Source: Desulforapulum autotrophicum
Lineage (GTDB): Bacteria; Desulfobacterota; Desulfobacteria; Desulfobacterales; Desulfolunaceae
Direction: 5' to 3'
Assembly: GCA_020723285.1 (NCBI GenBank)
Contig: DYJE01000014.1
Span: forward strand, 1-64,000
DNA: 64,000 bases
Shown here: piece by piece, positions 23,075 to 61,936 of the stretch
Position numbering within the stretch: the first letter of the stretch is position 1
How the letters are laid out: each line of letters starts with the position of its first letter
The notes under the pieces: generated by a model
What the model was told of the DNA's origin: nothing
Seen by the model: only the letters and a program-made list of their open reading frames with translations
Databases searched by the model: none
Program-made: the position numbers and the translations under genes

Positions 23075-23830
23075 TCACACCGCTATCTTTCTTGCCACAT
23101 AGACACCATAACTGAAGTAATCCTTATATTTTTCATACAGTGCGATCTCCCGAAGCTCAGCTTCAACGATGGCGGCGGCTTCCCCGCTGTTTTTGTTCCG
23201 TTCAAGGAAATCCTTGAACCGGCCCTGCATGGGCCGATAATAGTTATCCAGCCAGCAATGCTCAGGCAGGACAAAATAGCCCATGGGGGAATAACCGCAG
23301 CGTTCCAGAATGCTGATTTTTGAGGATGCCACATCGATTTCGGGGTATTCGTTCACCCAGTGATTCTGAACCTCTGCGGGTCGGGAACGTGTTTTCCAGG
23401 TGATTTCCGAAACAACGAGAATCCCGCCCACGTTCAGATAACGACTCCATTCTCTGACGCCTTTTTCAAAGCCGATGTTGTATATCGCGCCTTCGGCCCA
23501 GATGACATCGAATTCCCCGTCCTCAAACGGCAGATTGTCCATTGAGCACGATAGAGCGGTGATTCTATCGGAAAGCCCCATTTTTTCGGCCCTTTCTTCA
23601 AGCACATCGAGAAAGTCCTGAAGGAAGTCCACCGCCGTGATCCGGGCATTCAACAGGCGGGCGAGCACCAGGGTGGAAGCTCCGGTTCCGCATCCTATAT
23701 CGGCGATTTTAAGTGGTTCGGAACGGTCGATCATCGCGAGCTCAAGAGCTTTTTCAGTTTCGTTTTCCCCTCCGGGTCCCTGCCTGTCGGCATGTTGATG
23801 AAGGTCTATCAACAGGTGAAAATCGTCCAT
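23075..23830 (-). CDS. Class I SAM-dependent methyltransferase
   Basis: A small-molecule-type methyltransferase of 251 residues. SAM motif I ADIGCGTGASTL is near 43-54, the acidic end of beta-2 TAVDF near 67, and FDVIWAEGAIYNI (motif post-II) near 112. A C-terminal segment with FVLPEHCWLDNYYRPM may shape the substrate pocket. I chose the ATG at 23830, with AGAGGA 7 bases upstream, over the in-frame ATG at 23866. The substrate is unknown. It stands between the porin promoter and a divergent thioesterase, so it could share neither operon. Confidence 0.85.
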   Translation of the reverse strand: MDDFHLLIDLHQHADRQGPGGENETEKALELAMIDRSEPLKIADIGCGTGASTLVLARLLNARITAVDFLQDFLDVLEERAEKMGLSDRITALSCSMDNLPFEDGEFDVIWAEGAIYNIGFEKGVREWSRYLNVGGILVVSEITWKTRSRPAEVQNHWVNEYPEIDVASSKISILERCGYSPMGYFVLPEHCWLDNYYRPMQGRFKDFLERNKNSGEAAAIVEAELREIALYEKYKDYFSYGVYVARKIAV

Positions 23831-23995
23831 GGGTCTGTCCTCTGCTGTTTGCCATGACATTGTCATGGTATGGTTCAGGGTCTGTGATGCCTGTGGTTTT
23901 TATACAGGCTGATCATTGCCATATCAAACCTGTTTTCCCAACATGTGTTATCTGTTATACCGATAATGAATCATAATGAAAGGAAATAGAAAAAG

Positions 23996-27298: not shown

Positions 27299-28312
27299 TC
27301 ATTCGCCAAAACGATAGATGGATGCGGCCCAGGTAAGCCCTGCACCCAGCGCGACAAACAGCAATGTGCTTTTCGTGGTGTCAATCATGCCCATTTCAAT
27401 AACCTCATCCAAGGCAAGGGGAATGGTCGCGGCCGTGGTGTTTCCGTATTTCTGGATGTTGTTGTAAATCCGGTTGTCCGGGATGTTCATGGTTTTCTGG
27501 TACGCTTCGTTGATTCGCAAGTTGGCCTGATGAGGAATGATCAGGTCAATGTCATCAAGGGACATCCCGGCTTTTTCAAGGACTTCCAATGTCACTTCCG
27601 GAAGACGTCGCAACGCCAGCTTGAAGATTTTTGAACCGTTCATGGTGGGGTAAAGCCGGGCCACGTCCTCGCAGTCGAGCAGGCCTCTTTCTGGCAGTCT
27701 CGAAGCGGGCAGTTCAAGCATCAGACTTTCGGCAAACTCCCCTGCAGTATGAAGCACCGAAGCGATGACGCCGGTTTCCTTATCGGTTTCCACCCCTTCA
27801 AAACAGACGGCTGCGGCACCGTCACCAAAAATCACCGCCACATCACGGCCGCGTGTTGATTTATCAAGACCGGTGCTGTGAACTTCCGACCCCACAAAAA
27901 GCACTTTCCTGGCGAGTCCGCTCCGGATGTAAGCATCGGCGATGGACTGGCCGTAAAGAAACCCGGTGCATTGCTGCCGGATATCAATGGTCGGTGTGGA
28001 CGAAAGGCCCAGTTTGTGCTGAAGGAGACAACCGGGACCCGGAAAGAAAATATCCGGGCTGAGGGTTGCAAAAATGATCAGGTCAAGTTCCTCGGCTTTC
28101 CATCCGGCTTTGTCAAGGGCTATTTTAGTGGCTTCGAGACCAAGATCAGAAGCTCCGACGATTTCCCCTTCAGGGATCCAGTATCTCTGTTCGATGCCGG
28201 TGCGTTCCCTGATCCAAGCATCGCTGGTATCCATCATACTTGCCAGATCATCGTTGGTCACAAGCCGAGATGGGATATACCGGCCTGTACTTTTTATAAC
28301 GGTCCGTTTCAT
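27299..28312 (-). CDS. fabH: 3-oxoacyl-ACP synthase III family protein
   Basis: Ketoacyl-ACP synthase III, which starts fatty-acid synthesis by condensing acyl-CoA with malonyl-ACP. The Cys-His-Asn triad is complete: Cys in QQCTGFLYG near 113, His in PHQANLRI near 253 and Asn in KYGNTTAATIP near 283. I chose the ATG at 28312 (337 residues), since AAGGAGG lies 9 bases upstream; a GTG at 28321 touches that site and is unlikely. It is isolated from other fab genes and lies next to a parvulin isomerase gene (18-base gap). A role outside bulk lipid synthesis, such as starter supply for other acyl chains, is possible. Confidence 0.9.
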   Translation of the reverse strand: MKRTVIKSTGRYIPSRLVTNDDLASMMDTSDAWIRERTGIEQRYWIPEGEIVGASDLGLEATKIALDKAGWKAEELDLIIFATLSPDIFFPGPGCLLQHKLGLSSTPTIDIRQQCTGFLYGQSIADAYIRSGLARKVLFVGSEVHSTGLDKSTRGRDVAVIFGDGAAAVCFEGVETDKETGVIASVLHTAGEFAESLMLELPASRLPERGLLDCEDVARLYPTMNGSKIFKLALRRLPEVTLEVLEKAGMSLDDIDLIIPHQANLRINEAYQKTMNIPDNRIYNNIQKYGNTTAATIPLALDEVIEMGMIDTTKSTLLFVALGAGLTWAASIYRFGE

Positions 28313-28330
28313 AAAACCCACCCTCCTTAT

Positions 28331-45902: not shown

Positions 45903-46073
45903 TGAAAGACCTCTCTCTTTTGAAATTCTTGAACAAAATTCAGGAAACGCCCACAACTTGAAAACATCTATAGATACCTTATGTTGTTATAAAAACCAAT
46001 CATTGAAACGGTCGTCGGCATGACGTCCATGTCAGGCTGTTCAATGAAAGACCTGGGGACAAAAGGAGAAATC

Positions 46074-47282
46074 ATGGTTTTGACCAACATTGATTCACTG
46101 GCTGATCTGTGCTTTAAGCTGACCTGGGAAAAGGACGGTGTTAAACATGAGGAGCATTATTTCGGCGACGAAGTGAACCTTTACAGAGATTTTTTCCCTG
46201 GCGACATATCGCAGAAGCTTCTGAACCGGCCCGTCGGAGATGTTATGTCCTGGTCCTTCGAACCGGGAAGCCTGATTCCCGGCCACAGCGAGAAAAACCT
46301 CCACATCGTCCCTCACTCTCACTGCGATCTGAAAAACCTTCGGGGACAGGAATACCGGCTCCGTCAAGGCCGTTTCTATCCCAAGGGAATACTTAAAGGG
46401 ATTGCGGGTGTTTTCAGTGAAAACATCACCCCGTTCCGTGTGCTTGAATGCAACGGGAGGCATATCACAGCGGATTTCAATCATCCTCTTGCAGGGCTTA
46501 CCTTAAACGTCACTGTCGAGATCCTTGACATCCGCCCCAAGAAAAAAGAGCGGGGCGGCATGTGTTATGACTGGCTCGAACAGCTCACCGACGGGCCGGG
46601 CATCCAGGCCCGGATGAAAAACCAGGTGAGCGATTTTTTTTCTGACAGACCTTTTGCTCGGGACGACGAAAATCCCGATGCCTTGTTCTATAAAAAAGAC
46701 AGACTTGTCAGCCATATTGACGAACGCGCCCGGCTGACCCTTTCGGAGGTTTATGGCAAAACCCTTGAAAATGGATGTTCCGTCCTCGATCTGATGAGCA
46801 GCTGGCAATCCCATATTCCGGAACCCCTCGAATTCAAAGAGCTTCACGGAATCGGGATGAATCCCCATGAGCTTCAGGCAAACGGCCGCCTGACGTCATA
46901 CCAGGTCCACGATCTGAATGTGAATCCCATGATACCCTGTTCTGACAGAACATTCGACCATGTCATCTGTTCACTGTCCGTTGAATACCTCACCCGTCCC
47001 TTTGATGTCTTCAAGGATGTGGCAAGGGTTCTTAAACCGGGGGGATCTTTCATCGTCACGTTTTCAAACCGATGGTTTGACGGAAAATCCATCACGATCT
47101 GGAAAGAGCTGCATGAATTCGAGCGTGTCGGACTTGTTGCGGAATACTTTCATGCATCCGGGTTGTTTGACCGGCTGGAGACCCTGTCAGTCCGGGGTTA
47201 CCCAAGGCCATACACAGACGACTATTTCCCGAAACTGAAACTGTCAGACCCCATTTATATGATCCGGGGTTTTAAAAAGTGA
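46074..47282 (+). CDS. FKBP(SlyD)-like domain fused to a SAM methyltransferase
   Basis: A 402-residue protein in two parts. The N-terminal 160 residues look like a SlyD-type FKBP prolyl isomerase: an early strand LCFKLTWEKDG, and late ADFNHPLAGLTLNVTVEILD, which is the hallmark of SlyD/FKBP strands. The C-terminal part (about 220-390) is a class I methyltransferase with VLDLMSSWQSHIPEP (motif I), a GIGMNPHEL second strand, FDHVICSLSVEYL, and VLKPGGSFIVTFSN. I chose the ATG at 46074 with AAAAGGAG upstream. Its end overlaps uvsE on the other strand by 28 bases. Substrate unknown; a protein target seems possible given the isomerase-like part. Confidence 0.82.
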   Translation: MVLTNIDSLADLCFKLTWEKDGVKHEEHYFGDEVNLYRDFFPGDISQKLLNRPVGDVMSWSFEPGSLIPGHSEKNLHIVPHSHCDLKNLRGQEYRLRQGRFYPKGILKGIAGVFSENITPFRVLECNGRHITADFNHPLAGLTLNVTVEILDIRPKKKERGGMCYDWLEQLTDGPGIQARMKNQVSDFFSDRPFARDDENPDALFYKKDRLVSHIDERARLTLSEVYGKTLENGCSVLDLMSSWQSHIPEPLEFKELHGIGMNPHELQANGRLTSYQVHDLNVNPMIPCSDRTFDHVICSLSVEYLTRPFDVFKDVARVLKPGGSFIVTFSNRWFDGKSITIWKELHEFERVGLVAEYFHASGLFDRLETLSVRGYPRPYTDDYFPKLKLSDPIYMIRGFKK

Positions 47283-48335: not shown

Positions 48336-51300
48336 TCATGAGGCCACGGCTTCGGCATGGGTCCTGATGAAACCTTCGGAGCGCATGTATTCGGTGTATC
48401 TCAGGAAAACATCGCGGTGAAGCGGTTCCATGGCAAGGCCGTTGACCGCAAGGAACTCCACGAGATTGGAGCAGGAATACCGCTGCCTCCTTACGGTCTG
48501 CATCTGGAAAAACGTTCGGCCTCCCGTTCCGGCAAGCACGTCGTCCACAAGGGGAAGAAACGCCGAAAGAGCCGGATCGTCCACAGCAGAACGCCTGAGC
48601 ATGTTCACCCACTCATCCACGGAAAGCCGGTCCGGCGCATACCCGGCCCGGTCCAGTCCGTCAAGGAGATCGTTCAGGTTCAGAGGGAAAGGACTGACGA
48701 TGTTGTAATTCCGGCCCAGGGTTTCCGAAGACAGGGCCATGTCCACAATGATCCGGCTGACATGATCCACGGGAAGCCCGTCCAGCTCCACACCAAGATC
48801 CGGAACAGCGTTGAACCGGGCACATGCGCTGATCATCCGGCAGAAAAAATCCTCGACGTTCAGAACGCCGCTCCGGCTGTCTCCGTATATGGGGCCGGGG
48901 CGCACGATGGTCACCGGTCTTCCAAGTTCCCTGTAGGCCCTGACCATTTTTTCCGCCACCCATTTGCTCTGGGAATAGCCGTAGTACAATTCGGCTGCAC
49001 CCGGCAGTTCGCTGTCTTCGCCAACAGGATGGAAAACGTCGGGGTCCTTCCGTTCAAAAACCCCGATGGTGGACACATAGCACAGGGGTTTCACCCGTCC
49101 TTTTGCGGCAAAGGCCAGAATCTCCCGTGTCCCGGTGACATTGGCCTTTTTCAGAAGTCCGTAAGGATAGGAAAAATTCACCATGGCCCCGTTATGGATA
49201 ACGGCGTCGGATCGTATCGCGGCTTCGGCGTACACCTCCTCATCAAGGCCGAAACGAGTCTTTGCCAGATCCCCCGGAAGAGCCGTGATCCGCTGCGCAT
49301 AGGCGTTTTTCCAAATGCCGTAATGTTCAAGGTTGGATGCGATCCGCGCCATGGCCGTTTCGACGTTTCCGGCCCGGACAAGGCAGAACACCCGGGCGTT
49401 TGTCTTTTCAAGAAGATCCCTGAGGAGATAGGCCCCGAGGTACCCGGTTGCCCCGGTAAGGAAAACCTGGGAAAATTCCCGTCCATCCTCTGCTTGAACT
49501 CTGTCTTCCGTTTCGAACCCGTCCGATGCAAAAACGGCGTCGGCCAGCATCGTCTCCACAGTATCGCTTTCACGGTCGGCTTCCCCGTTCATCATCCGCT
49601 CAAGGGTTTCCGAAAGTTTCCGGACGGTCATGTTTTCGAACAGCCGCTGGACCGTGAGGGACACGCCGAATCGTTCATTGATTTCCACCAGCAGTTTCAT
49701 GGCTTTCAGGGAATCTCCGCCCCATTCGATAAAATCGTCATCAATTCCAAGGAGCGGGATGCCCAGGTTCTGTTCCCACAACGCCGTCAGGATCTTTTCC
49801 GTGTCACTGACCGGCTGGGATTTCACCTGAACGCCGGTGTTTTTCCTGGGATCGGGCAGCCGGTTTCTGTCGATTTTTCCATTGCTGTTAAGGGGCATGG
49901 CATCAAGAAAAACCATATGGGTGGGCACCATCCATGGCGGGAGGGTTTTTGCCACATGATCCCGAATCATCCGGTCACCGGGAGACTGGGATTCCGGCAG
50001 ATCCGCGACCAGCCAGGCCGCAAGGGATTTGTCGCCCGCATCATCTGTCACGACCTGAACCACGGCTTCACGAACTCCCGTGACCCCAAGGATCGCCTGT
50101 TCGATTTCCTGGAGCTCAATTCTGTACCCTCTCACCTTCACCTGATGATCCAGCCGTTCAATGTATTCCAGAGCCATGTCCTTCCGCAGGCGCACAAGAT
50201 CCCCGGTCCGGTACATCCTGGCGTTTTCCTCGCCGCTAAACGAATCGGGAAGAAACCGGCTCCGGGTCAGTTCCGGCTGACCGTGGTATCCCCTTGTCAC
50301 CCCATGGCCTCCGATAAAAAGTTCGCCGGGGATCCCTTTGGGCACAGGCTGAAGATCAGGACCGAGAACATAGAGCTTTGTATTGCCCAGAGCCCGTCCG
50401 ATATGCACGCCCGATTCTGCCGTGATCTCAGCCGCCGTGGACCAGACTGTGGTTTCCGTGGGCCCGTAACAATTGAGCAGTTTTTTGCCTTTGGTCGCAA
50501 GAACCCCGGCCAGATCGGGTGAAAGGGGTTCGCCGCCGGTGATCAGCGTCATGTCCGGATGTCCCTCCCATCCCGCGTAGAGAAGGAGACGCCATGACGA
50601 CGGAGTGGCCTGCATCAGGTTGACGGGATGGTTCTCCAGAAAATCCTTCAGAAGGTAACCGTCCCTGCCGATGTCCGGCGGGAGGATGTGCATGGTTCCA
50701 CCCAGAAGCAGGGGGATAAACAGTTCGGGTTTCACCATGTCGAAACTCAGCCGCGTCAGACAGAGCATGGTATGGTCCGGCCTGAAATCCACGAGACGGT
50801 TCATGGCATGGACAAGATTCACAATCCCCTGATGCGTGGCCACCACCCCCTTGGGTTTCCCCGTGCTTCCGCTGGTGTAGATGATATAGGCCGGGTCCGT
50901 ATGTGATACGCCGGTATCCGGAATAGCCGGGCTGTCAGACGTGCGGATATCCCTCAGGCATTCCCCGTCCCCGTCGAACGCCAGTGTTTTCACCCCGGCC
51001 CAGGCCCCATGGCCCTCGCGGCCCGGATCGGTGATGATTAGCCGGAGCCCGGCGTCAGACACCATATGCTTCAAACGGTCTTCCGGGTAGTCCAGATCCA
51101 GGGGCAGATAGGCCGCCCCGCTTTTCAGAATGCCCATCAGGGCGACCATCAGGGTCATGGATTTTTCCATGGCGAGTCCCACCACATGCCCCCGGCCCAG
51201 TCCCGATGCCTGGATCAGGGAGGACGCAAGACCGGAAAGCCGGTCCAGCTCGCCAAATGTCAAGGATTTGCCCTGAAACCGAAGGGCTGTTTTTAAGGGA

Positions 51301-54300
51301 TACTTTTTCGCGTTTTCAGAAAAGATGCCATGAATGAGCCTGCCTTCCGGGTAATCCATGGCACTGTCGCAATTCAGGCCCATCAGCTCAAGCCGCTCAT
51401 CGTCGGAAAGCATGGGAAGCGAAGAAAGGGGCTGACCCAGATGACCTGCAAAGTTCCGGACAAGCTGTGATAGATGGCCTGCCATATTGACCGCCAGGGC
51501 GTCATCGTACCGTTCGCTGTCGTACACGATCACGCCATAAAGACGGCCACGGCCTGTGTCATCGGGCGAAAAAACGAGCCGGACCGGAGCCTTCATATCC
51601 ATCCCCCCTGCCGCATCCGGAAGAACGGTCCAGACGCACTGCACCGGATACGTATCGCGGGTCAGCCCGAGATAACGTTCCAGCATATCCACCGATATGT
51701 CTCCGTTGGATTTTGCCTCGGAAGCCAGCTGTTTCACAGTCAAGGCCAGCAGACCCAGGTTTTCGCCGGAATCCACGCCTGTCCTTATAAAAAACCGGTG
51801 CAGAGACATGTCCCGGTCCCCATGACCGATCTCGGCAAAATCCATCAGGATGTCGTTCTGCCGTCCGTACCGGGACAGAAGAATGGCCACGGCGCTTAAA
51901 ACCATGTCTTTTTCCGTGAGGCCCAGCTCCGCAATCGCCTGTTTCCCGGTTTCGGGAAAATCCATGGAAAAGGCATGGGTTTTGAGACTGTTTCGCTTTT
52001 CCTGATCATCCGGAGCGCGATGGTTTGCGGGGAGCGGAATTCCCAGTGGCGCGTCGGCCAACTGTTTTTCCCAGTACGCCATCTGCCTGACGGCCACGGG
52101 TCCGAACATGCCCCGTGGAATGGCGTTACGTTTTTCCAGGTAATCCATCACGGATTTCAGAATGTCCGCCGGATCGGGAATAAAACGGATCATGTCCGGA
52201 TCTGCGGCAAAAAGAGCCTTCATCGTGTTGGTGTTGTCCACAGTCCAGAAGCTGTAACTCTCAAACGTGTCTTTGTCATACCCGTTGATGAAGGGGTAAA
52301 GGGGGTAAAGGGCGTTGTCCTTATCTTTTCGGGTCTGCTTTTTCCAGGTCTCAAAGGGAATCCGTGTGAGCTTGTACCCTCTCTCCCTGATGAGCCTTGC
52401 GAAATCCGAGGTTGAATAAGGCCGCTTGTTGATCAGGTGGTAGATCCGGCCGGGAGTATCGCCGGATCTTGCGATGGCCGTAAGCATTCTGCACAGGTGG
52501 TCCACCGGTATGATGTCGAAATTCGTTTCTTCCTGGGGCACGGTTCCCATGCGGATACACCCCTTGATCAGCCGTGCGATGAAATCGCTTTCCTTCATGA
52601 CTCCGCGTCCCGGCGTGCCCGCCACATAATCGAAGCGGTACACGTGAACCGGGATGCGCCAGCGTCTCGCCTTCAGGCACAGCTGCTCAGCGACCCACTT
52701 GCTCTGACCGTATCCGGTGGTGATGCCCCGAGGATCGTTGACCTCCTCTTCAAACCACCTGTTTTTCCCGTGAACCAGGGGGAGCACCGCCAGGGAGGAA
52801 ATGAAATGCAGGGTTTTGATCTGAGAGGTTCCGGCCATGCGGATCACTTCCCGGGTCCCTTCGACGTTTGTTTTTTTAAGGGCGTCAAAGGGTTTCATCC
52901 AGTCCACCGTGGCACCGCAATGCCAGATGGTGTCGATCACCTGACACAACCGGGTGAACTCGTTCCGGTCAAGTCCGAGCCGCCATTCTCCCAGATCTCC
53001 CACCACGGCATGAATCCGGTTCAATGGAATGTCGTCCGCAGCGCCGAACCTTTTGACCGCGTCACAGATCCTCTCCATTCCCTTTTCCCGGCTCTCCGCC
53101 CTCACAAGGCAATGAATATCCGCATCGGTTTTTAAAAGGAGTTCCACCAGAAGGTACGATCCCAGATAACCGGTGCAGCCGGTAAGAAACAGGTTTTTGC
53201 CTGACGGGGAAGCCATGGGTGTTTCATGCCTGAACAGAAATTCATCCAGCTCCGTTTCCGACACAAGATCAAGGTGTGTTTCGGGAATCGTAAGCCCTTC
53301 GGCCACATACCGCGCAAGCCCCCGAATGGTCCTGTGGTCCTTGAACACCGTTGAAGGAATCTCCATACCGGCCCATTCTTCCAGACGGTTGATCACGCTG
53401 ATCACGGCCACGCTGTCCATGCCCCATTCATCAAAGGTGCTGTCCGTGTCCACATCGGCCGCTTCGAAGCCCAGCATATCGGCGACCCTTTGTTTCAGAA
53501 AACCCGTGACGTCCTCAAAACTTCGTCTCACCGCCACGACAGCTTCCGGAGATTGAGCTCCCTGATCCCGGACCGAGCCATCCCCAAGGGCGAAATAACT
53601 GCGTGTTTCAAACACATAGCCCGGAAGAGGAAGTTTTTTAAACCGCGTCCGGACGGATTCGTCAAAGCATCCGCCGCTGACCCATTTCGCCGCTTTCTCA
53701 CGCAACGAGCCCGAAACCGGAGTTTCAGCGGCATTCTCTTTCACGGCAACCCCTTCAAAAGCATCGGGGCTGTCCGTTTCTCCCGAAACAAAGCGCTGAA
53801 GAGCCGAGACGAGGGAATCTCTTCCACCCGCCACCACGGCAAGCCGATGCCGGTCATGATCCCTTCCATACATCAGTGTGTGTGCGTAATGGAAAAGGCC
53901 TTCCCCGGTCATCCAGCTGTTATTCCTGTCTTCCAGCCAGGCAAGGTGTGACGCGGCCATGCGAACCAGACCTTCCCGTGTCCTCGCTGAATAAACAGCG
54001 AGTTGCTCGGCGGAATTCTCAGCGGTCATGTCCGGTGCCGGATACTCCTCAAGGATCAGATGGGCGTAGGACCCGCCGAATCCGAACGAACTGATTCCGG
54101 CACGCCTTGGAAGGTCACGGCCATCCAAGTCATGGGGTTTCTTCCACGCCATCTTCTCCCTGTTGATGAAAAACGGTGACCCGCTCAGGGCTATCAGGGA
54201 ATTGACCTCCTCAAGGTGGTTGTTGGGCGTGATGACCTGACGTTTCAGCATTTCCACAACCTTGATCAGCCCGGCAATGCCAGCTGCCGATTCAAGATGC

Positions 54301-57300
54301 CCGATCCGGCTTTTCACAGAGCCAAGGGCGCAGGCCCCGGTTTTTACACTTCGCCCCATATCCTTGTAAATGTCCCGAAATGCCATGGACAAACCGCTGA
54401 TTTCGATGGGATCTCCGATAAAAGTCCCTGTTCCGTGGGTTTCCACATACCCGATGCTCTCCGGTTCAATGCCGGCCTTGAGAACGGCCTTGGTCACCAG
54501 ACGGGCCTGGGACGGTGCGCAGGGCGCGGTCAAAGATTCTGTCCGGCCTCCATGACTCACCGCCGAACCCTTGATGACAGCATGGATAAAGTCCCCATCC
54601 CTTTGGGCATCGGCAAGGGGCTTCAGAAGAACGGCCCCCACACCTTCCCCCCTCACGTAACCGTCCGCGTTACTGCCGAAGGTGCTGCATTGCCCCTGAC
54701 CGCTCAACAGCCCGGAACGCCCGAGGGACGTGAAATTTTCGCCTGAAATCAAAAGGTTCACACCGCCTGCGATGGCCATGGAGCAATCGCCCTGGCGCAT
54801 GGCCGAGATGGCCCTGTACACCGCCACAAGGGAACTGGAGCAGGCCGTGTCGATGGCCTCGCTGGGGCCGTGGAAATCAAGGATGTACGATATCCGGTTG
54901 GCGATCATGGTATGGGCGAGTCCTGTGGCCATGTATGCCTCCGGTTCCGCGCCGGATTTGCGGATGACATCGTGGTAATCAAATGAGGAAACGCCCGCAA
55001 AAATCCCGATATCCGCTCCGGCCAGCTTCTGCGGAGCATACCCGGCATTTTCGAACGTGTTCCATACCGTCTGGAGAAACAGCCGGTGCTGGGGGTCCAT
55101 CAACCGGGCCTCCATGGCGTTGATCCTGAAATACTCCGCGTCGAATCCGTCGATATCCTTGATAAAGCCCCCACAGCGCGCAAAATGCCCCCTGGCCGTG
55201 TCAAGGTAAAGCCCCCGGATATCGTCCGGGAAATCATGGACAGATGAAACCCCTTTTTCGAGATTATCCAGAAATTCCGAAGGGCTGTCCGCGCCGGGGA
55301 ATCTGCAGCTCATTCCGATGATGGCGATGTCGTCCCCGAAGTCGCGTTCCTTTGATACCCCGGAATTGAGGCCAGGCACTTGGGCATCGTCGGACCCGGT
55401 AAAAAAATGGATCAGTTTGTTCACGGTGGGATAGTCATAAAACAGGGTGGGGGAGCAGATCCGGCCGGTCATTTTTTCCAGTTCTTCCGTCAGTTCCACA
55501 GCCTCGGATGACGTCAGCCCGTAATTCCCGAAAGGCTGGTCCGGGTCCAGTTCCCCGGAGGGGATATTGAAAAACACCGCCAGCTTTTCCGTGAGAGTGT
55601 ACTGAAGGTCTTCGCGGTCAATCCCCGGCCTTTCCTGCCGGATCATCCGGCTCCCGGCATGAGCGGATAACCGGTCGATCATCTGAAATCCATGGTCAGC
55701 ATAGCGTTTGCGGGTTTCATTACGCCTGATTTTTCCGCTTGTGGTCACCGGCAGGCTTTTCGGTGGCACAAGAATCACGTCGGACACGTTCAGTTCGTGG
55801 TCTTTCTTGATGACAGCGGCGATTCGCTTCAACAGTTTTTCCGTTATCCCGGTATCCACAGGTCCTGTGTATTCGGCGGCCACATACAGATCGTCGTCGA
55901 CCTGAAACGATGCCACCCTGCCCGGCCGGATGCCTTCACCGGCCGTTTCAGTGCTGAGCTCAATATCCTGGGGGTAAAAGTTCCGCCCCTTGAAAATCAT
56001 CATATCCTTTCGCCGTCCGGCGATGTAAAGTTCCCCGTTCATCATGAAACCCAGGTCACCGGTCCGGAGATACGGCCCGTCACCGTCGCCGGTAAACGCC
56101 CGGAACGTTTCATCGCTCAGTTCGGGCCTGTTCCAGTAGCCCCTGGCCACGCTGGGACCTTTGACCCATATCTCGCCGACGTGCTGATCCGCGAGAATGT
56201 GACGATTGTCAGGGTCCACGATGCGGACAAGCTGTCCATCGGGCGTCTTTCCATGGGCGATCAGCCGGACAGAGTCGCTCGTTCCTTCATTGACCGGCAC
56301 CACAATCCCCCGGGAAAAATGGTCTTTATCCGCATGAACGTCATGGAATCGCGCGTTTTGAGGCGCACAACTGACAAACAATGTGTTTTCCGCCAGACCG
56401 TAGCAGGGCGTGAATGAACTCCGCCTGAATCCGTGGCGGCCGTACAGGGCGCAGAATCGGTCTATCGTATCACCGCGGACAGGTTCCGCTCCGGAAAAAG
56501 CGATGTTCCAGTGTGAAAGGTCCAGGTTTTCGCATCGCTTCGCATCGTATTTTCGCACACAGAGCTCGTATGCGAAATTCGGCCCCCCGCTGATCACGGC
56601 TTTCGTCCGTGACACGTTTTCAAGCCAGGACAAGGGATCCACCAGAAAATCCAAAGGAGACATGAGCACCGCCTTGTAACCGGAGTAAAACGCCTGAAGC
56701 ACGATGCCGATCAGCCCCATGTCATGATACAGCGGAAGCCAGCCGACCCCGGTGACTTCTTCCGGTGCCCCAAGCCCGAACCCTTCCCTGATGAGTCCTT
56801 CGTTATGAATGATATTGCCGTGGGACACCATGACCCCTTTGGGATGGTTCGTCGAACCCGACGTGTACTGGATGAAGGCAATGTCATCCGGGCTGACGGC
56901 CGGATCGGTCCAGTGTTCAGCCCATTCACCGGTAAACGACTCGAACAGAATTTCCTCAAGACGTGTGCAGGTCCAGCCCAGTTTTTCGCCGGCGTCTGAG
57001 ACGTCCCGTGTGGTGATCAGCCCCATAGGCTCCGCGTCGTCGATGACATGGTTGATTTTGCGGATAAACGAATGGGAAAAAGGCGGATAAAGCGGAATGG
57101 GTATCATTCCCGCGCACATGCATCCGAAAAAAGAAACCACAAAATCAAACCCCGGTTTCAACGCAAGAATCAGCCGGTCGCCTTTGTGAAACCGCTGCTG
57201 AAGATACCCCGCCGCTCTCAGTGAACAGTCATGCAGCATGCCGTAAGTGACGTCAAGGGATTCCGTGTTTGACAGAAATGAGTACAGAACGTGTTCGTTC

Positions 57301-57374
57301 AATGAAGCGTTGCGTACAAACATCCCGTCGACAAGTGTGGTCATTCTACCCGTTTTCATTTGATTTCCTTTCAT
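48336..57374 (-). CDS. FAAL-initiated hybrid PKS/NRPS megasynthase with two reductase domains
   Basis: A single 3,012-residue assembly line. Reading order: fatty acyl-AMP ligase (about 10-560), ACP (585-655), ketosynthase (680-1110), KS-AT-type linker with no AT (1110-1270), ACP (1285-1355), NAD(P)-binding thioester reductase (1390-1745), C-terminal half of a condensation domain (1760-1995), adenylation domain (2015-2505), PCP (2520-2595), terminal thioester reductase (2630-3000). Each is annotated below. Expected chemistry: a free fatty acid is adenylated and loaded, extended once, then reduced; an amino acid is activated on the last module and released reductively. There is no AT, so an AT in trans is required; no PPTase, AT, thioesterase, transporter or tailoring gene is in the window. 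The gene appears more GC-rich than its neighbours. No ribosome site is strong (GAAAGGAAATCAAATG region); an internal ATG at residue 6 or 12 is also possible. The product is unknown to me. Confidence 0.93.
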   Translation of the reverse strand: MKGNQMKTGRMTTLVDGMFVRNASLNEHVLYSFLSNTESLDVTYGMLHDCSLRAAGYLQQRFHKGDRLILALKPGFDFVVSFFGCMCAGMIPIPLYPPFSHSFIRKINHVIDDAEPMGLITTRDVSDAGEKLGWTCTRLEEILFESFTGEWAEHWTDPAVSPDDIAFIQYTSGSTNHPKGVMVSHGNIIHNEGLIREGFGLGAPEEVTGVGWLPLYHDMGLIGIVLQAFYSGYKAVLMSPLDFLVDPLSWLENVSRTKAVISGGPNFAYELCVRKYDAKRCENLDLSHWNIAFSGAEPVRGDTIDRFCALYGRHGFRRSSFTPCYGLAENTLFVSCAPQNARFHDVHADKDHFSRGIVVPVNEGTSDSVRLIAHGKTPDGQLVRIVDPDNRHILADQHVGEIWVKGPSVARGYWNRPELSDETFRAFTGDGDGPYLRTGDLGFMMNGELYIAGRRKDMMIFKGRNFYPQDIELSTETAGEGIRPGRVASFQVDDDLYVAAEYTGPVDTGITEKLLKRIAAVIKKDHELNVSDVILVPPKSLPVTTSGKIRRNETRKRYADHGFQMIDRLSAHAGSRMIRQERPGIDREDLQYTLTEKLAVFFNIPSGELDPDQPFGNYGLTSSEAVELTEELEKMTGRICSPTLFYDYPTVNKLIHFFTGSDDAQVPGLNSGVSKERDFGDDIAIIGMSCRFPGADSPSEFLDNLEKGVSSVHDFPDDIRGLYLDTARGHFARCGGFIKDIDGFDAEYFRINAMEARLMDPQHRLFLQTVWNTFENAGYAPQKLAGADIGIFAGVSSFDYHDVIRKSGAEPEAYMATGLAHTMIANRISYILDFHGPSEAIDTACSSSLVAVYRAISAMRQGDCSMAIAGGVNLLISGENFTSLGRSGLLSGQGQCSTFGSNADGYVRGEGVGAVLLKPLADAQRDGDFIHAVIKGSAVSHGGRTESLTAPCAPSQARLVTKAVLKAGIEPESIGYVETHGTGTFIGDPIEISGLSMAFRDIYKDMGRSVKTGACALGSVKSRIGHLESAAGIAGLIKVVEMLKRQVITPNNHLEEVNSLIALSGSPFFINREKMAWKKPHDLDGRDLPRRAGISSFGFGGSYAHLILEEYPAPDMTAENSAEQLAVYSARTREGLVRMAASHLAWLEDRNNSWMTGEGLFHYAHTLMYGRDHDRHRLAVVAGGRDSLVSALQRFVSGETDSPDAFEGVAVKENAAETPVSGSLREKAAKWVSGGCFDESVRTRFKKLPLPGYVFETRSYFALGDGSVRDQGAQSPEAVVAVRRSFEDVTGFLKQRVADMLGFEAADVDTDSTFDEWGMDSVAVISVINRLEEWAGMEIPSTVFKDHRTIRGLARYVAEGLTIPETHLDLVSETELDEFLFRHETPMASPSGKNLFLTGCTGYLGSYLLVELLLKTDADIHCLVRAESREKGMERICDAVKRFGAADDIPLNRIHAVVGDLGEWRLGLDRNEFTRLCQVIDTIWHCGATVDWMKPFDALKKTNVEGTREVIRMAGTSQIKTLHFISSLAVLPLVHGKNRWFEEEVNDPRGITTGYGQSKWVAEQLCLKARRWRIPVHVYRFDYVAGTPGRGVMKESDFIARLIKGCIRMGTVPQEETNFDIIPVDHLCRMLTAIARSGDTPGRIYHLINKRPYSTSDFARLIRERGYKLTRIPFETWKKQTRKDKDNALYPLYPFINGYDKDTFESYSFWTVDNTNTMKALFAADPDMIRFIPDPADILKSVMDYLEKRNAIPRGMFGPVAVRQMAYWEKQLADAPLGIPLPANHRAPDDQEKRNSLKTHAFSMDFPETGKQAIAELGLTEKDMVLSAVAILLSRYGRQNDILMDFAEIGHGDRDMSLHRFFIRTGVDSGENLGLLALTVKQLASEAKSNGDISVDMLERYLGLTRDTYPVQCVWTVLPDAAGGMDMKAPVRLVFSPDDTGRGRLYGVIVYDSERYDDALAVNMAGHLSQLVRNFAGHLGQPLSSLPMLSDDERLELMGLNCDSAMDYPEGRLIHGIFSENAKKYPLKTALRFQGKSLTFGELDRLSGLASSLIQASGLGRGHVVGLAMEKSMTLMVALMGILKSGAAYLPLDLDYPEDRLKHMVSDAGLRLIITDPGREGHGAWAGVKTLAFDGDGECLRDIRTSDSPAIPDTGVSHTDPAYIIYTSGSTGKPKGVVATHQGIVNLVHAMNRLVDFRPDHTMLCLTRLSFDMVKPELFIPLLLGGTMHILPPDIGRDGYLLKDFLENHPVNLMQATPSSWRLLLYAGWEGHPDMTLITGGEPLSPDLAGVLATKGKKLLNCYGPTETTVWSTAAEITAESGVHIGRALGNTKLYVLGPDLQPVPKGIPGELFIGGHGVTRGYHGQPELTRSRFLPDSFSGEENARMYRTGDLVRLRKDMALEYIERLDHQVKVRGYRIELQEIEQAILGVTGVREAVVQVVTDDAGDKSLAAWLVADLPESQSPGDRMIRDHVAKTLPPWMVPTHMVFLDAMPLNSNGKIDRNRLPDPRKNTGVQVKSQPVSDTEKILTALWEQNLGIPLLGIDDDFIEWGGDSLKAMKLLVEINERFGVSLTVQRLFENMTVRKLSETLERMMNGEADRESDTVETMLADAVFASDGFETEDRVQAEDGREFSQVFLTGATGYLGAYLLRDLLEKTNARVFCLVRAGNVETAMARIASNLEHYGIWKNAYAQRITALPGDLAKTRFGLDEEVYAEAAIRSDAVIHNGAMVNFSYPYGLLKKANVTGTREILAFAAKGRVKPLCYVSTIGVFERKDPDVFHPVGEDSELPGAAELYYGYSQSKWVAEKMVRAYRELGRPVTIVRPGPIYGDSRSGVLNVEDFFCRMISACARFNAVPDLGVELDGLPVDHVSRIIVDMALSSETLGRNYNIVSPFPLNLNDLLDGLDRAGYAPDRLSVDEWVNMLRRSAVDDPALSAFLPLVDDVLAGTGGRTFFQMQTVRRQRYSCSNLVEFLAVNGLAMEPLHRDVFLRYTEYMRSEGFIRTHAEAVAS
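48400..49475 (-). other. Domain: terminal thioester reductase (TR2)
   Basis: VFLTGATGYLGAYLLRDLLE is the extended-SDR nucleotide-binding start. Later come AMVNFSYPYGLLKKANVTGT, the YYGYSQSKWVAEKM motif with catalytic Tyr and Lys, and IVRPGPIYGD. Terminal TR domains release PCP-bound acyl thioesters as aldehydes or, after a second reduction, alcohols. Confidence 0.9.
49590..49820 (-). other. Domain: peptidyl carrier protein
   Basis: WGGDSLKAMKLLVEINERFG near residue 2553 holds the phosphopantetheine Ser in GGDS. The ends match a standard PCP between A and TR domains. Confidence 0.9.
49850..51330 (-). other. Domain: adenylation domain, possible glycine-like code
   Basis: Core motifs visible: TFGELDRLSG, YIIYTSGSTGKPKGV (A3), CYGPTETTVW (A5), YRTGDLVR (A7), LDHQVKVRGYRIE (A8), NSNGKIDRNRLP (A10, catalytic Lys). 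By eye against GrsA PheA, the ten code residues read D-M-P-Q-I-G-C-V-W-K. The Asp expected for alpha-amino acids is present. Known glycine code D-I-L-Q-L-G-L-I-W-K shares D, Q, G, W, K and similar residues at two more, so a small residue such as Gly is a guess. Confidence 0.75.
51385..52090 (-). other. Domain: C-terminal half of a condensation domain
   Basis: Starts MAYWEKQLADAPLGIPLPAN, equivalent to the mid-domain YW..L......LPTD motif of C domains, and continues through LSRYGRQNDILMDFAEIGHG to the SSLPMLSDDERLEL exit. About 235 residues instead of 450. The N-terminal lobe with HHxxxDG is absent; TR1 stands in its place. Amide bond formation would therefore not be expected here. Confidence 0.8.
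52140..53200 (-). other. Domain: internal thioester reductase (TR1)
   Basis: NLFLTGCTGYLGSYLLVELL begins the NAD(P) fold; IWHCGATVDWMKPFDALKKT, the catalytic GYGQSKWVAEQLC and YRFDYVAGTPGRG follow. TR domains usually end a synthase; this one is followed by 1,250 more residues. Confidence 0.88.
53310..53525 (-). other. Domain: second acyl carrier protein
   Basis: TFDEWGMDSVAVISVINRLE near residue 1318, phosphopantetheine Ser in GMDS, flanked by helices typical of PKS ACPs. It follows the KS without an AT. Confidence 0.88.
54045..55340 (-). other. Domain: ketosynthase, trans-AT-like
   Basis: DIAIIGMSCRFPGADSPSEF start; DTACSSSLVAVYRA with the active Cys near 843; ETHGTGTFIGDP and GHLESAAGIAGLIK with the two His. 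SHGGRTESLTAPCAPSQARL resembles trans-AT KSs. After it, about 150 residues resemble a KS-to-AT linker ending KLPLPGYVFETRSYF, the usual post-AT hinge motif; the AT itself is missing. Confidence 0.9.
55400..55620 (-). other. Domain: first acyl carrier protein
   Basis: FGNYGLTSSEAVELTEELEK near residue 618; Ser after GLT is the probable phosphopantetheine site. It directly follows the FAAL and would receive its acyl adenylate. Confidence 0.85.
55690..57344 (-). other. Domain: fatty acyl-AMP ligase (FAAL)
   Basis: AFIQYTSGSTNHPKGVMVSH near residue 170 (P-loop), GWLPLYHDMGLIG near 210 (typical of FAAL), SGAEPVRGDTIDRF near 290 and a C-terminal TSGKIRRNETRKRY. FAALs activate free fatty acids without CoA and pass them to the following ACP. 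Confidence 0.9.
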
Positions 57375-57982: not shown

Positions 57983-59557
57983 TTAAGTCACCGGCTTTGA
58001 TTTCCCTGGGGTTGGCATTGGCTTTTTTGCCGGGGGCCTGCTGAAAACCGCATTTTTCACATCAGATTCGGTAAAATCGACACGCTGGACTGAGCATTGG
58101 TCAAACATGGCACCGTTCATTTTCGCTTTGCGAAAATGTGACCCATCGAGAACAACCCTAAAAAACCGGACATTTCGAACATCCGAAGATTTCAGGGAAA
58201 CACCTTTCATCATTGAATTCTCGAACGTGCTGCCTTTCAAATTGGCCCCCGTCATGACAGCGCCGTCAAAAACGCATCCCGTAAACGAACCGTTCGACAA
58301 ATCACAACCCGACAGCTCAGAGCCAGAAAACCTGACATTGATCCACACACCGTTTTTCATGGACGCATTGGTTAGCGCCACCCCTCTCAATTGGACATTT
58401 TCAAATCGTACCCCGTTCATTGAAACCCGGCCCAGTCTCACCGCCGACATATCCGTATGTTTGACATCACTGCCTGTAAAATCAATCCCGTCCAGAACTG
58501 AAGCGTTCAGCACAACACCGTTCCACTGGGATTGTTTCATGGATATGGTTTTCATGGACGCGCCCAGAAGTTTCGTATGATCCAGGATCGTATCGTCAAA
58601 ATCGCAGCTCACGAAATCGGAATAGCTCAAATCTGCAGAACCCAGATTTGAACCCCTGAACTTCGATTCACGAACCTGTGTTTTCCGAAGATCCACATAC
58701 CTCAGATCTGACCCGTTAAAAGACGTCTCGACAAGAAAACAGTCGTCGAGTCTCGCGTTGCTGAGCATGGAACCTGAAAAGCTGCATTTTTCAGCTGTCA
58801 AACCCCTCATGTAGCTCCCGCTGATATCCGTTGATTCCATGTCCACTTTTTTCAAATATGAAAAACTGAGATTTGTTTCACGGAGCGTGGAATTCACCTT
58901 TTTCCGGGCTGCGAAAACAACATTCTCGCACTTGATTCCACTCAGATTCGCACCTGTAAAATCTGATGCATGAATTTCCGAATCATAAATATGAGAACCG
59001 TGGACATCGGCTCGCTTGAAATTGACGGCGTTAAACACCAGAGAAAGCACGGAGAAACTGACATCCGCCTGTGACAGATCCACCTGGGTAAAAGTTGTCT
59101 CACGAATATACGAGCCCTTCATTTTCGCGTTATTCAAACGGACGGCACTCATCTTCGAATCCGTCAGAACAACGTAATTCAGAACGGAATCCGCCATGGC
59201 CATGGAACTGAATTCCGATCTCTGGATTTTTGAACCGCTGAGATTGGAAGCGGACAGGGTCACTTTCCGGAAATTCGAATCCAGGATGATGGAATCCCTG
59301 AAATCCGCTTTGTCAAAGTTGGCCTGGTCGATGTCCACATGAAAAAACCTGACACGGTTCAGATTCTTCGATGGGCAGACAATGTTCTGAAAAGATTTGT
59401 TTTCAAAAATCGCGCCGCTGGACATATGAACCGTTTTTGGTGTTGCCGCCACCTTCACGCCACTTTTCGGAGGCCCGTCGGCGGAGCTGACGTCCAACGC
59501 TGAAAACCATGGACATAACGCGCAAAACAGTAATAATCGGATGAAAATAGGCTTCAA
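57983..59557 (-). CDS. Secreted pentapeptide-repeat protein
   Basis: A 524-residue protein with a signal peptide (about 1-26) and then almost entirely A(D/N)LXX-type pentapeptide repeats (SNLSGSKIQRSEFSSM, RGSNLGSADLSYSDFVSCDF, MTGANLKGSTFENSMMKGVS), forming an expected quadrilateral beta-helix of about 90 turns. The repeat is less strict than in MfpA or Qnr proteins. Starts with TTG at 59557 behind AGAGGA. It is followed by a LysM lipoprotein and a kinase on the same strand, upstream in transcript order. Function unknown; an envelope structural or binding role is plausible. Confidence 0.88.
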   Translation of the reverse strand: MKPIFIRLLLFCALCPWFSALDVSSADGPPKSGVKVAATPKTVHMSSGAIFENKSFQNIVCPSKNLNRVRFFHVDIDQANFDKADFRDSIILDSNFRKVTLSASNLSGSKIQRSEFSSMAMADSVLNYVVLTDSKMSAVRLNNAKMKGSYIRETTFTQVDLSQADVSFSVLSLVFNAVNFKRADVHGSHIYDSEIHASDFTGANLSGIKCENVVFAARKKVNSTLRETNLSFSYLKKVDMESTDISGSYMRGLTAEKCSFSGSMLSNARLDDCFLVETSFNGSDLRYVDLRKTQVRESKFRGSNLGSADLSYSDFVSCDFDDTILDHTKLLGASMKTISMKQSQWNGVVLNASVLDGIDFTGSDVKHTDMSAVRLGRVSMNGVRFENVQLRGVALTNASMKNGVWINVRFSGSELSGCDLSNGSFTGCVFDGAVMTGANLKGSTFENSMMKGVSLKSSDVRNVRFFRVVLDGSHFRKAKMNGAMFDQCSVQRVDFTESDVKNAVFSRPPAKKPMPTPGKSKPVT

Positions 59558-59579
59558 AAAGGTGTCCTCTTATAACGTT

Positions 59580-60020
59580 CTATCGAGGTCCAAAAAGCTG
59601 AAAATCGTCTTTTGCGGTTCCGGGGGACGGCTGTTTTTTTTCGCGATCCTTTCTGGCCGGCGAGGATTTATGAACCGTTTTCTTTTTTCGCGATTCATCC
59701 ACATGGGACCTCGGCATGGCCTGGGTGGTGATGAGGATGTCCTTGGGGATGAAAACCTGGGTTCCCACGATGATTTCCTCAGGGCCAAGGGTTGGGTTGG
59801 ATTCCATCAATCGTTCCGCATTCTCGGATTTCCCCGTATACCAGCGGGATATGATTTCAAGATTTTCATCCGCCCAGGTCACGGTATGAACGAATCCGGA
59901 CACAGCCGGTTTGAGAGGCTTCCACTTTTTTTCATCGGTTCCGAACAGAGAACAGCCGCTCACCATGACGACAGCCATGATCAAAAAAAGGCATCCTGAT
60001 TTTCTGAGTGATGAATTCAT
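59580..60020 (-). CDS. LysM-like lipoprotein
   Basis: A 146-residue protein. Lipoprotein signal peptide with lipobox VSGC at residues 20-23 and a Ser-Leu after the Cys. A LysM-like segment (about 44-95, TVTWADENLEIISRWYTGKS, then NPTLGPEEIIVGTQVFIP) should bind peptidoglycan. A basic low-complexity tail (RKKKTVHKSSPARKDREKKQ) follows. It lies 22 bases upstream of the pentapeptide gene. Confidence 0.85.
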   Translation of the reverse strand: MNSSLRKSGCLFLIMAVVMVSGCSLFGTDEKKWKPLKPAVSGFVHTVTWADENLEIISRWYTGKSENAERLMESNPTLGPEEIIVGTQVFIPKDILITTQAMPRSHVDESRKKKTVHKSSPARKDREKKQPSPGTAKDDFQLFGPR

Positions 60021-60133
60021 GGATATGTGACCCGGTTCCCAGCTCCTTACGACAACCCCATACTGGACTTATATACACTGGAATAGAGATATTCAAGATA
60101 AATGTTATGTGGTTGGTCAGGGAATATGAGTGG

Positions 60134-61936
60134 TCAGCGGCTTTTTTTTTCGAGAAAACGGGAGGCATTGACGTTCAGGGGATTGATGGCCAGGGCTTTT
60201 TTCATATGCTCGACGGCTTCGCCGTTCATTCCAAGCTTGTCTTCGATAACAGCAAGGTTGAAATAAGCCTGGTCCGTGTATGACGGGGAATATTCGATCA
60301 CCTTTTGATACATCTCACGGGCTTTACCGTATTCCGAACGGGCGGCGTAACTGTATCCCATGTTGAAATAGATATCGGGATTCGAAGGATCCAGTGCCGC
60401 AGCCTTTTCGTAATACTCGACGGCTTTTTCATTGTTCTTCATGACCGTGAACACCTTCCCGAGCAAAAAGCACGTATGGCTGTTTTTCCGATCCAGACTG
60501 TAGGAGGTTTCAAGGGTGGCTCTGGCCTGGTCCATGTCTGAAGCCATCAGGGTTTCCCCGAGTCCGGCCAGAGCTTTGGAATAATGGGGATCGATATACT
60601 CCTTCCATAACGGTTTTTCATTCCGTTTGATTTCGAAAAAATCTGCGGCCTCTTTGTATCTCTTCATATTCAGATCCATGATCCCCGGTTTGATCTTTTC
60701 ACCCACGATGGCGGATTCGGTCATAGCCGGTTCAGGGATAAATGATCTCAGAATTTTTTCAACACGGACTTTGCCGCGATCTCCGTATGAAACAGCAAAA
60801 AGTGCTATGACCGCAAAAAAACAAAGCCCATAAACCGCCTTCCTGAACGTCGATATGCGGCGGGGCCTCTTCGGAACATATTCACGGGTGAAGCCCGAGT
60901 CATCCTCCCTGATGGCCGTGCTCATGTCTTCGTCTTCGAACCTTCGCCCAGCAGAGACATTCAGATTTGTCTGGGTGAGACCTTCTCCACCTTCACTGCC
61001 GAACAGGTTTTTCATAAACTTCGCAAGGTCTTTCTGCGACAGGCGGATGGAACGTTCCTCCATAAACCGGTCAAGATCTTTCAGCATGCTGTCCGCTGTC
61101 TGGTATCTTTGGTCCGGGTTCTTTTCAAGGGCTTTGTTCAATATTTGGACAAGACCTTCGGGTATGCCGGGATTGTGCGTTTCAGCAGGCTCGAACACCG
61201 CGTTCCGTGCCTTGGCAAGAGCCTGAAACGTATCACCATCGTATATTTTTCGGAGAGTCAGAAGCTCGTACAGCACAATCCCCGTGGCAAAAATGTCCGA
61301 CCTGTGGTCTATCACATCCCCGCTGGCCTGTTCCGGAGACATGTACGACACTTTCCCCTTGATGGTGCCGATCATCGTATTGCTGTTCTGATTGGCCGCT
61401 TTCGCAATTCCGAAATCGATGATCTTTACCTGACCGTCATAGGTGATAAAGATGTTCTGAGGCCCGATGTCCCGGTGGATGATTTTCAGATGCCGCCCGT
61501 CCTCGTCATTCAGGCTGTGGGAGTAATCAAGCCCGGCGAGTATCTGGCTGATGATATTCAGAACGATGCTGTCATCGATAAACCTGTTTTTCTCAACCAA
61601 CCTCTTGAACGTGAAACGAAGATCCTTACCGGCCAGGTATTCCATGGATATGAAATAGCGGTCGTTGATGGCCCCGAAATCATAAAGCTGAACAATATTG
61701 GGATGATGAAGCCTTGCCGCCAGTTTCGCCTCGTCGATGAACGATTCGACAAGCTTCTCCTCGGAATTCAGATGATGAAGAATTCTCTTGATCACGATCA
61801 GCTTTTCGAACCCCTCTGCGCCTGTCAGCTTGGCCTTGAACAGTTCAGCCATTCCGCCGGTAGCAATGCGTTCCAGCAGAACGTACTTACCAAATTTGAC
61901 AGAACCCTGAGAGTTGGGATTCATCGACTCAATCAT
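60134..61936 (-). CDS. Membrane Ser/Thr protein kinase with TPR domain
   Basis: A 600-residue PknB-type kinase. Gly loop IATGGMAELF near 25, Lys in LIVIKRIL near 50, HRDIGPQNIF near 152, DFGIAKA near 172 and MSPEQA near 198. The loop Lys of HRDxKxxN is Gly here; Ser or Gly at this place is common in HRDVSPQN-type bacterial kinases. A membrane span (about 365-385) is followed by TPRs (about 425-590) such as AVEYYEKAAALDPSNPDIYF. The TPR region should be periplasmic. It probably forms an operon with the LysM and pentapeptide genes. Confidence 0.92.
   Translation of the reverse strand: MIESMNPNSQGSVKFGKYVLLERIATGGMAELFKAKLTGAEGFEKLIVIKRILHHLNSEEKLVESFIDEAKLAARLHHPNIVQLYDFGAINDRYFISMEYLAGKDLRFTFKRLVEKNRFIDDSIVLNIISQILAGLDYSHSLNDEDGRHLKIIHRDIGPQNIFITYDGQVKIIDFGIAKAANQNSNTMIGTIKGKVSYMSPEQASGDVIDHRSDIFATGIVLYELLTLRKIYDGDTFQALAKARNAVFEPAETHNPGIPEGLVQILNKALEKNPDQRYQTADSMLKDLDRFMEERSIRLSQKDLAKFMKNLFGSEGGEGLTQTNLNVSAGRRFEDEDMSTAIREDDSGFTREYVPKRPRRISTFRKAVYGLCFFAVIALFAVSYGDRGKVRVEKILRSFIPEPAMTESAIVGEKIKPGIMDLNMKRYKEAADFFEIKRNEKPLWKEYIDPHYSKALAGLGETLMASDMDQARATLETSYSLDRKNSHTCFLLGKVFTVMKNNEKAVEYYEKAAALDPSNPDIYFNMGYSYAARSEYGKAREMYQKVIEYSPSYTDQAYFNLAVIEDKLGMNGEAVEHMKKALAINPLNVNASRFLEKKSR

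Follow-up and report, generated by a model that had tools for sequence, protein, structure and literature searches.

A Nine-Domain Synthase in a Single Open Frame

The window analyzed here, a 64,000-nucleotide stretch of Desulforapulum autotrophicum DNA, carries on its minus strand a single open frame of 3,012 residues that begins with ATG. Pfam and NCBIfam searches place along it the domain order FAAL-ACP-KS-ACP-TR-halfC-A-PCP-TR (Table 1), which bears out the nine domains, their order, and the single frame described in an initial annotation of the DNA, which gave no strand. In the Pfam search, AMP-binding and NAD_binding_4 (thioester reductase) domains each occurred twice and carrier domains three times, alongside one ketosynthase with a RhiE-like linker and an incomplete Condensation domain; AT, KR, DH, ER, and TE families were absent from the 19 Pfam matches of the synthase. 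The NCBIfam Thioester-redct domain model matched two stretches above its cut-off. Among the best 25 of 140 NCBIfam models, only this model and the AA-adenyl-dom domain model passed their cut-offs, and no full-length equivalog did.

Table 1. Features of the synthase gene and of the genes upstream of it (window positions; residue numbers refer to the synthase)
Feature	Position	Strand	Basis
Nine-domain FAAL/PKS/NRPS protein, 3,012 aa	48336..57374	-	Pfam, NCBIfam, homologues
FAAL (fatty acyl-AMP ligase), Lys548	55635..57374	-	Pfam AMP-binding; solved relatives; Lys in 5/5
ACP1, Ser622	55395..55607	-	PP-binding; Ser in 5/5
Ketosynthase, Cys845-His980-His1026	54045..55334	-	Pfam; triad in 5/5; solved relatives
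Post-KS linker (RhiE-like), without AT domain	53565..54044	-	PF22336 at residues 1127-1199
ACP2, Ser1321	53295..53498	-	PP-binding; Ser in 5/5
TR1, internal thioester reductase, Ser1527-Tyr1555-Lys1559	52140..53204	-	Pfam, NCBIfam, solved relatives, separate clade
C-terminal lobe of a condensation domain (half-C), lacking HHxxxDG	51360..52112	-	Pfam, alignment, solved relatives
Adenylation domain, Asp2212 and Lys2500, pocket code DMPSIGCVWK	49860..51323	-	Pfam, alignment
PCP, Ser2555	49605..49790	-	Pfam; Ser in 5/5
TR2, terminal thioester reductase, Thr2769-Tyr2800-Lys2804	48366..49469	-	Pfam, NCBIfam, alignment
Pentapeptide-repeat protein, signal-peptide-like N terminus by eye	57983..59557	-	Pfam; 37% to G007 counterpart; 2/5 members
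Lipoprotein-like protein, 146 aa	59580..60020	-	42% to 142-aa G007 protein in same place; 2/5 members
Ser/Thr kinase with TPR repeats	60134..61936	-	Pfam; 56% to G007 counterpart; 2/5 members

On the plus strand, frame 1 is interrupted by stops across 48336–57374. A 721-residue antisense frame inside the gene (48357–50522, plus strand), in which Pfam recognized nothing, probably arises as a shadow of coding bias. G+C content is 56.4% in the synthase gene and 49.8% in the remainder of the window; gene and flanks are less than 4 points apart in the other four genomes that carry the gene.

The Synthase Is Shared by Five Genomes

Among eight genomes of the same family (the window's own included), full-length homologues 54% (genome G007) and 40% identical to the synthase were found with near-complete coverage. 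In all, co-linear frames of 3,013–3,023 residues, 38%–54% identical to that of the window, are present in four further genomes (G007, G004, G249, and G025). The G249 and G025 members lie in open frames of 3,029 and 3,019 residues, the N terminus of the latter being cut off by a contig end in a genome that is 79% complete. When 389 genomes of the order were searched with an alignment of the internal reductase TR1, 320 had a match at E ≤ 0.001; five matches, the window's own included, reached at least 470 bits, and the next scored 262 bits. A class sample (389 genomes) contained four of the five members at that level, and the matches listed came from genomes already found in the order search. 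In a phylum sample (395 genomes), the window's own was the sole match at E ≤ 1e-60. Genome searches for relatives were confined to this phylum. The five members are spread over five genera and three families, and two of them correspond to records JAHIRD010000147.1 and JAKSCC010000231.1.

A contig scan with two strict peptide patterns, built from three sequences, returned two loci only; since the G249 and G025 members would not fit these patterns, the scan gives weak support to absence elsewhere. Searching a plasmid collection with the DNA of the synthase gave no match. At the protein level, 157 plasmid records matched a 640-residue query, none of them with a single place covering 80% of it, and in the best 15 of the 157 the match stops no later than query residue 396, within the TR part of the query.

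We marked 15 positions that we take to be catalytic or carrier residues, the Ser/Thr-Tyr-Lys sets of the reductases included: FAAL Lys, two ACP Ser, KS Cys-His-His, TR1 Ser-Tyr-Lys, A-domain Asp and Lys, PCP Ser, and TR2 Thr-Tyr-Lys. All 15 are invariant in the five members. The co-linear frames in four other genomes exclude an assembly error joining two or more genes, which the initial annotation had named as one result that would overturn it, and we conclude from them that the synthase is real. That it is a decaying or misassembled fusion without function, as loss of the catalytic lobe of its condensation domain (see below) might suggest, is very improbable given that five assemblies keep an open frame of some 3,000 residues at this level of divergence, with invariant active sites.

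Genes Beside the Synthase

In both the window (57983–61936) and G007 (L043:1161-5138), genes for a kinase, a lipoprotein-like protein, and a pentapeptide-repeat protein lie upstream of the synthase in the same order and on one strand, the four products being 56%, 42%, 37%, and 54% identical. Spacing is loose, with 608 bases between the pentapeptide gene and the synthase. The lipoprotein-like protein matched no family above cut-off. Of ten genomes searched, only the window genome and G007 matched the kinase (E ≤ 1e-80) and the pentapeptide protein (E ≤ 1e-20). A flank comparison covered all of contig C7 and the first 36,000 bases of the G007 contig, which is 49,736 bases long. Apart from AMP-binding matches to the synthase itself and short antisense shadows within its gene, the remaining neighbor matches were of histidine-kinase/response-regulator type, 24%–30% identical and at different places; the other neighbors compared are not orthologous. 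A G249 kinase, considered as a counterpart of the window's kinase, was dismissed at 27% identity (78 candidates in G249).

In G004, G249, and G025 the synthase stands without the trio, and Pfam analysis of 14 neighboring proteins revealed no shared biosynthetic gene near it. The description of the gene as an orphan has to be amended for the window and its closest relative G007, where the trio is kept. The companion statement that the window holds no other biosynthetic gene is broadly right: no PKS or NRPS gene was found among the 40 Pfam-scanned of the other 68 window ORFs of at least 150 aa. The nearest to biosynthetic among those scanned were a FabH-type gene (27299–28321) and two methyltransferase genes (23075–23866 and 46020–47282). 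The second of these lies near the 3′ end of the synthase, and a tailoring role for it is unsupported because no counterpart of it turned up in the flank comparison with G007.

The kinase matched 34 PADLOC families, with PD-T4-6 best at 1.2e-77, and in at least 25 of the 34 the match lies over the kinase domain. These matches probably reflect shared kinase ancestry and are not proof of defense. The synthase, the pentapeptide protein, and the lipoprotein-like protein had no match in the defense-system scan.

Loading and Extension Domains

Among NCBIfam models, the FAAL region ranked the NRPS/PKS model PRK05691 first, followed by PRK05850, PRK09192, FadD21, PRK12476, and FadD32, all below their cut-offs. 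Among solved relatives of the region, 7r7e-g ("Polyketide synthase") and 3kxw rank first, followed by FadD23 and FadD32; FadD28 chains are also among them, and CoA ligases score far lower. By these comparisons, the closest relatives of the region are FAALs and not CoA ligases. A FAAL-specific insertion and rejection of CoA have been described as features of FAALs (PMC8460268).

The KS retains an intact Cys-His-His triad in all five members. Its module contains no AT, Pfam finding no Acyl_transf_1 domain anywhere in the synthase, and the post-KS linker ends in an LPxYxF-type motif in the five-member alignment. The top solved relatives of the KS include AT-less synthases and PksJ, which we take to be a trans-AT enzyme. 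With no AT in the protein, malonate would have to be supplied in trans. No dedicated trans-AT gene was found beside the synthase. Elsewhere in the window genome there is one free-standing AT-family frame of 329 aa, probably FabD-like as judged by reading, which is a candidate malonate supplier; one Sfp-like PPTase, likewise labeled by reading, is also present. The same genome (G000) contains frames of 3,870 residues on contig C48 and 2,859 residues on contig C80; both show KS-like as well as AT matches and probably encode further multidomain synthases.

Two Distinct Thioester Reductases

Both reductase domains carry the NADPH motif and the (Ser/Thr)-Tyr-Lys set of thioester reductases (TIGR01746). 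The nearest solved relatives of TR1 are 8v1x and the MxaA reductase 4u7w. TR1 carries FDYV or FDFV where TR2 of three members (f1) has PGPI, so a changed activity of TR1 is possible.

As comparators we chose, from among the higher-ranking hits of the order search, 15 TR matches that lie outside the family. In 14 of these, 3 to 126 residues separate the TR domain from the C-terminal end of its frame, and the C-terminal side of the fifteenth (L102) is cut by a contig end; TR1, by comparison, ends about 1,270 residues before the C terminus of the synthase. Neither a KS nor a second TR was found in the five comparators scanned. One frame, L099:8752-10086 (G132:C102), has 445 residues, most of them taken up by one thioester reductase domain; its nearest neighbor in the tree is the L098 frame.

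In a tree of 21 domains (five TR1, five TR2, and 11 of the 15 comparators), the five TR1 domains form one clade (100/100) and the five TR2 domains another (96/89). The pairings of the window with L013 and of L079 with L080 are present in both clades; the placement of L014 differs between them and is weakly supported in TR1. Because TR1 and TR2 each form a clade of their own, the array was present in the common ancestor of the five members, and TR1 is no recent duplicate of TR2. On these comparisons, the synthase is a vertically kept hybrid.

A Half Condensation Domain before a Variable Adenylation Domain

The Condensation match of the window's synthase covers only profile positions 193–274 of 456. 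In all five members the match begins at position 190–193; it spans about 85–90 positions in the window, G007, and G004 (in the last of these below the family cut-off, at 25.8 versus 30.6 bits) and reaches the profile end in two members (192–455 and 192–456). With a mean identity of 16%–34%, the segment is the least conserved of ten compared in the five-member alignment. No HHxxxD motif is present in any of the five proteins, and in the best solved relatives, Txo2 and Txo1, the alignment falls in the rear portion of the C domain. An AlphaFold model of TR1-halfC-A from a three-row alignment had a mean pLDDT of 38.9 and a pTM of 0.31, values too low for use. Judged by the sequence alignments, the segment is the C-terminal lobe of a condensation domain whose N-lobe, with HHxxxDG, is missing. 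The full C domain with HHxxxDG of a canonical NRPS elongation module (C-A-PCP) is thus not present, and the C-terminal lobe directly before the A domain is the layout of a starter module with a truncated C domain (*C), the G004 match being below cut-off.

Outside the synthase, G004, G249, and G025 (the last 79% complete, as stated) have no Condensation match at E ≤ 0.001. The only other match in the window genome is a free-standing PapA5-like acyltransferase, a 464-residue frame. This frame (L084:1387-2754) has an HHAIAD motif and adjoins an efflux-pump-like gene; it was rejected as a trans condensation partner, having no match in G004, G249, or G025. In G007 there are a 473-residue frame with 24% identity to the PapA5-like protein and one weak match below cut-off. 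With only a C-terminal lobe, no HHxxxD, and three of five genomes devoid of other Condensation matches, the usual amide-forming step appears to be missing, though a condensing partner may exist outside the Pfam Condensation family.

These results bear on the reading of the initial annotation, in which FAAL loading, one KS cycle, one amino acid, and reductive release make a single line to a lipo-amino aldehyde or alcohol. The intact active sites of all five members support the individual activities; the single line fares less well, with no amide-forming domain and with TR1 between the modules. In a continuous line, a trans partner or direct aminolysis would make a 3-oxoacyl amide, TR2 would release the lipo-amino aldehyde or alcohol, and TR1 would be a side activity or a spacer. 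The module order is indeed that of ordinary lipopeptide lines, and reductive release of a FAAL-started lipopeptide has been proposed for mutanoclumpins (PMC12403116). We nevertheless consider a continuous line unlikely, both because of the absent full C domain and the scarcity of partners just described and because a mere spacer would not be expected to keep Ser-Tyr-Lys and the NADPH motif in all five members, as TR1 does.

We mapped the pocket code of the A domain from what we take to be the PheA anchor positions, and used only the Asp235 and Lys517 equivalents as evidence. These two residues, which hold the α-amino acid, are kept, and the remaining pocket positions vary: the codes at these presumed positions are DMPSIGCVWK (window), DMPSIGLVWK, DIAFIGVIWK, DALTLGGVCK, and DAIHLGGLCK, all different, with two of them one position apart. 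The codes were compared among the members, with no assignment to any known code; their variability suggests that the amino acid probably differs between members.

A Possible Route through Two Reductive Lines

With slightly better than even confidence, we propose that two self-terminating reductive lines, FAAL-ACP-KS-ACP-TR1 and *C-A-PCP-TR2, are fused in one chain and coupled by aldehyde chemistry. We prefer this layout because a reductase, and no recognized amide-forming domain, stands between the polyketide and amino acid modules. In the first line, the FAAL would activate a fatty acid and load it onto ACP1, the KS would extend the fatty acyl chain once with malonyl-ACP2, and TR1 would reduce the 3-oxoacyl thioester by two electrons to a 3-oxoalkanal. 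In the second, the starter-type module would load an α-amino acid, and TR2 would reduce its thioester to an aldehyde. The amine and the carbonyls might then couple, either on the PCP, giving an enaminone before TR2 acts, or after release, possibly leading to a pyrrole. The internal TR could pass its aldehyde on instead of releasing it, or could reduce it to the alcohol.

Were TR1 to carry out a four-electron reduction, the first line would yield a 3-keto alcohol or diol-type lipid and the second an amino alcohol, and the two would remain uncoupled. Terminal R domains of NRPSs are described as reducing to the aldehyde or the alcohol (PMC12403116), and MxaA is among the nearest solved relatives of TR1. 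Such an outcome seems improbable to us, as it would leave the fusion of both lines in all five members unexplained.

Returning to the coupled lines, a more specific version, which we put forward tentatively and think doubtful, would make the protein a one-chain Knorr-type acylpyrrole synthase: the 3-oxoalkanal and the PCP-bound amine would form an enaminone, and the aldehyde made by TR2 would close a 3-acylpyrrole bearing the amino acid side chain. The second reductase would then replace condensation by a C domain, and members would differ only in fatty acid and amino acid. In flask chemistry, 1,3-dicarbonyls and α-amino aldehydes give pyrroles, as reported for a Zr-catalyzed reaction of N-acyl α-aminoaldehydes (PMC10337043). 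Ring closure via an aldehyde after reductive release is described for pyrazinones (PMC10979478) and has been proposed for mutanoclumpins (PMC12403116). Pyrrole, pyrazinone, or mutanoclumpin-type chemistry in the present synthase would be by analogy with these cases.

If the coupled lines operate, a hybrid assembly line would form a C–N bond through two reductases and aldehyde chemistry, with no condensation domain, and a chemical class would be added to anaerobic Desulfobacterales-type bacteria (five genomes, one layout, five pocket codes). As a single gene encodes the entire line, expressing one protein would be enough to test this reading.

Relation to Known Systems

The architecture was not described in the titles or abstract starts of the CC-licensed PMC literature sampled. 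All of its parts are known; the order, the internal TR, and the lost condensation lobe together make a new variant. The mutanoclumpin mcg cluster, a FAAL-started PKS-NRPS, resembles it in the FAAL, one malonate extension, amino acids, and a terminal R domain giving an aldehyde; mcg, however, comprises several genes and makes amide-linked residues, whereas here there are one gene, no full C domain, and an extra internal TR (PMC12403116). A truncated *C before a starter A domain has a precedent in ThdA, for which gatekeeping is among the functions considered (PMC7253712). The *C of ThdA stands at the start of the protein, while the N-terminally truncated C domain of our synthase follows a TR inside one chain. 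The C-A-T-C-A-T-R pyrazinone synthetases share the reductive release chemistry supposed here (PMC10979478).

With trans-AT (AT-less) PKSs the synthase shares a KS without AT and a RhiE-like linker, but its single module is fused to a FAAL and a TR. MxcG has the same A-PCP-TR end: the NCBIfam model MxcG (NF038078) scores 857.6 bits over the whole protein, with its best stretch at residues 2016–3002. The equivalog cut-off of this model is 2300, which places the synthase outside the MxcG family, and its A-PCP-TR2 end follows a half-C and a complete acyl-ketide-TR line.
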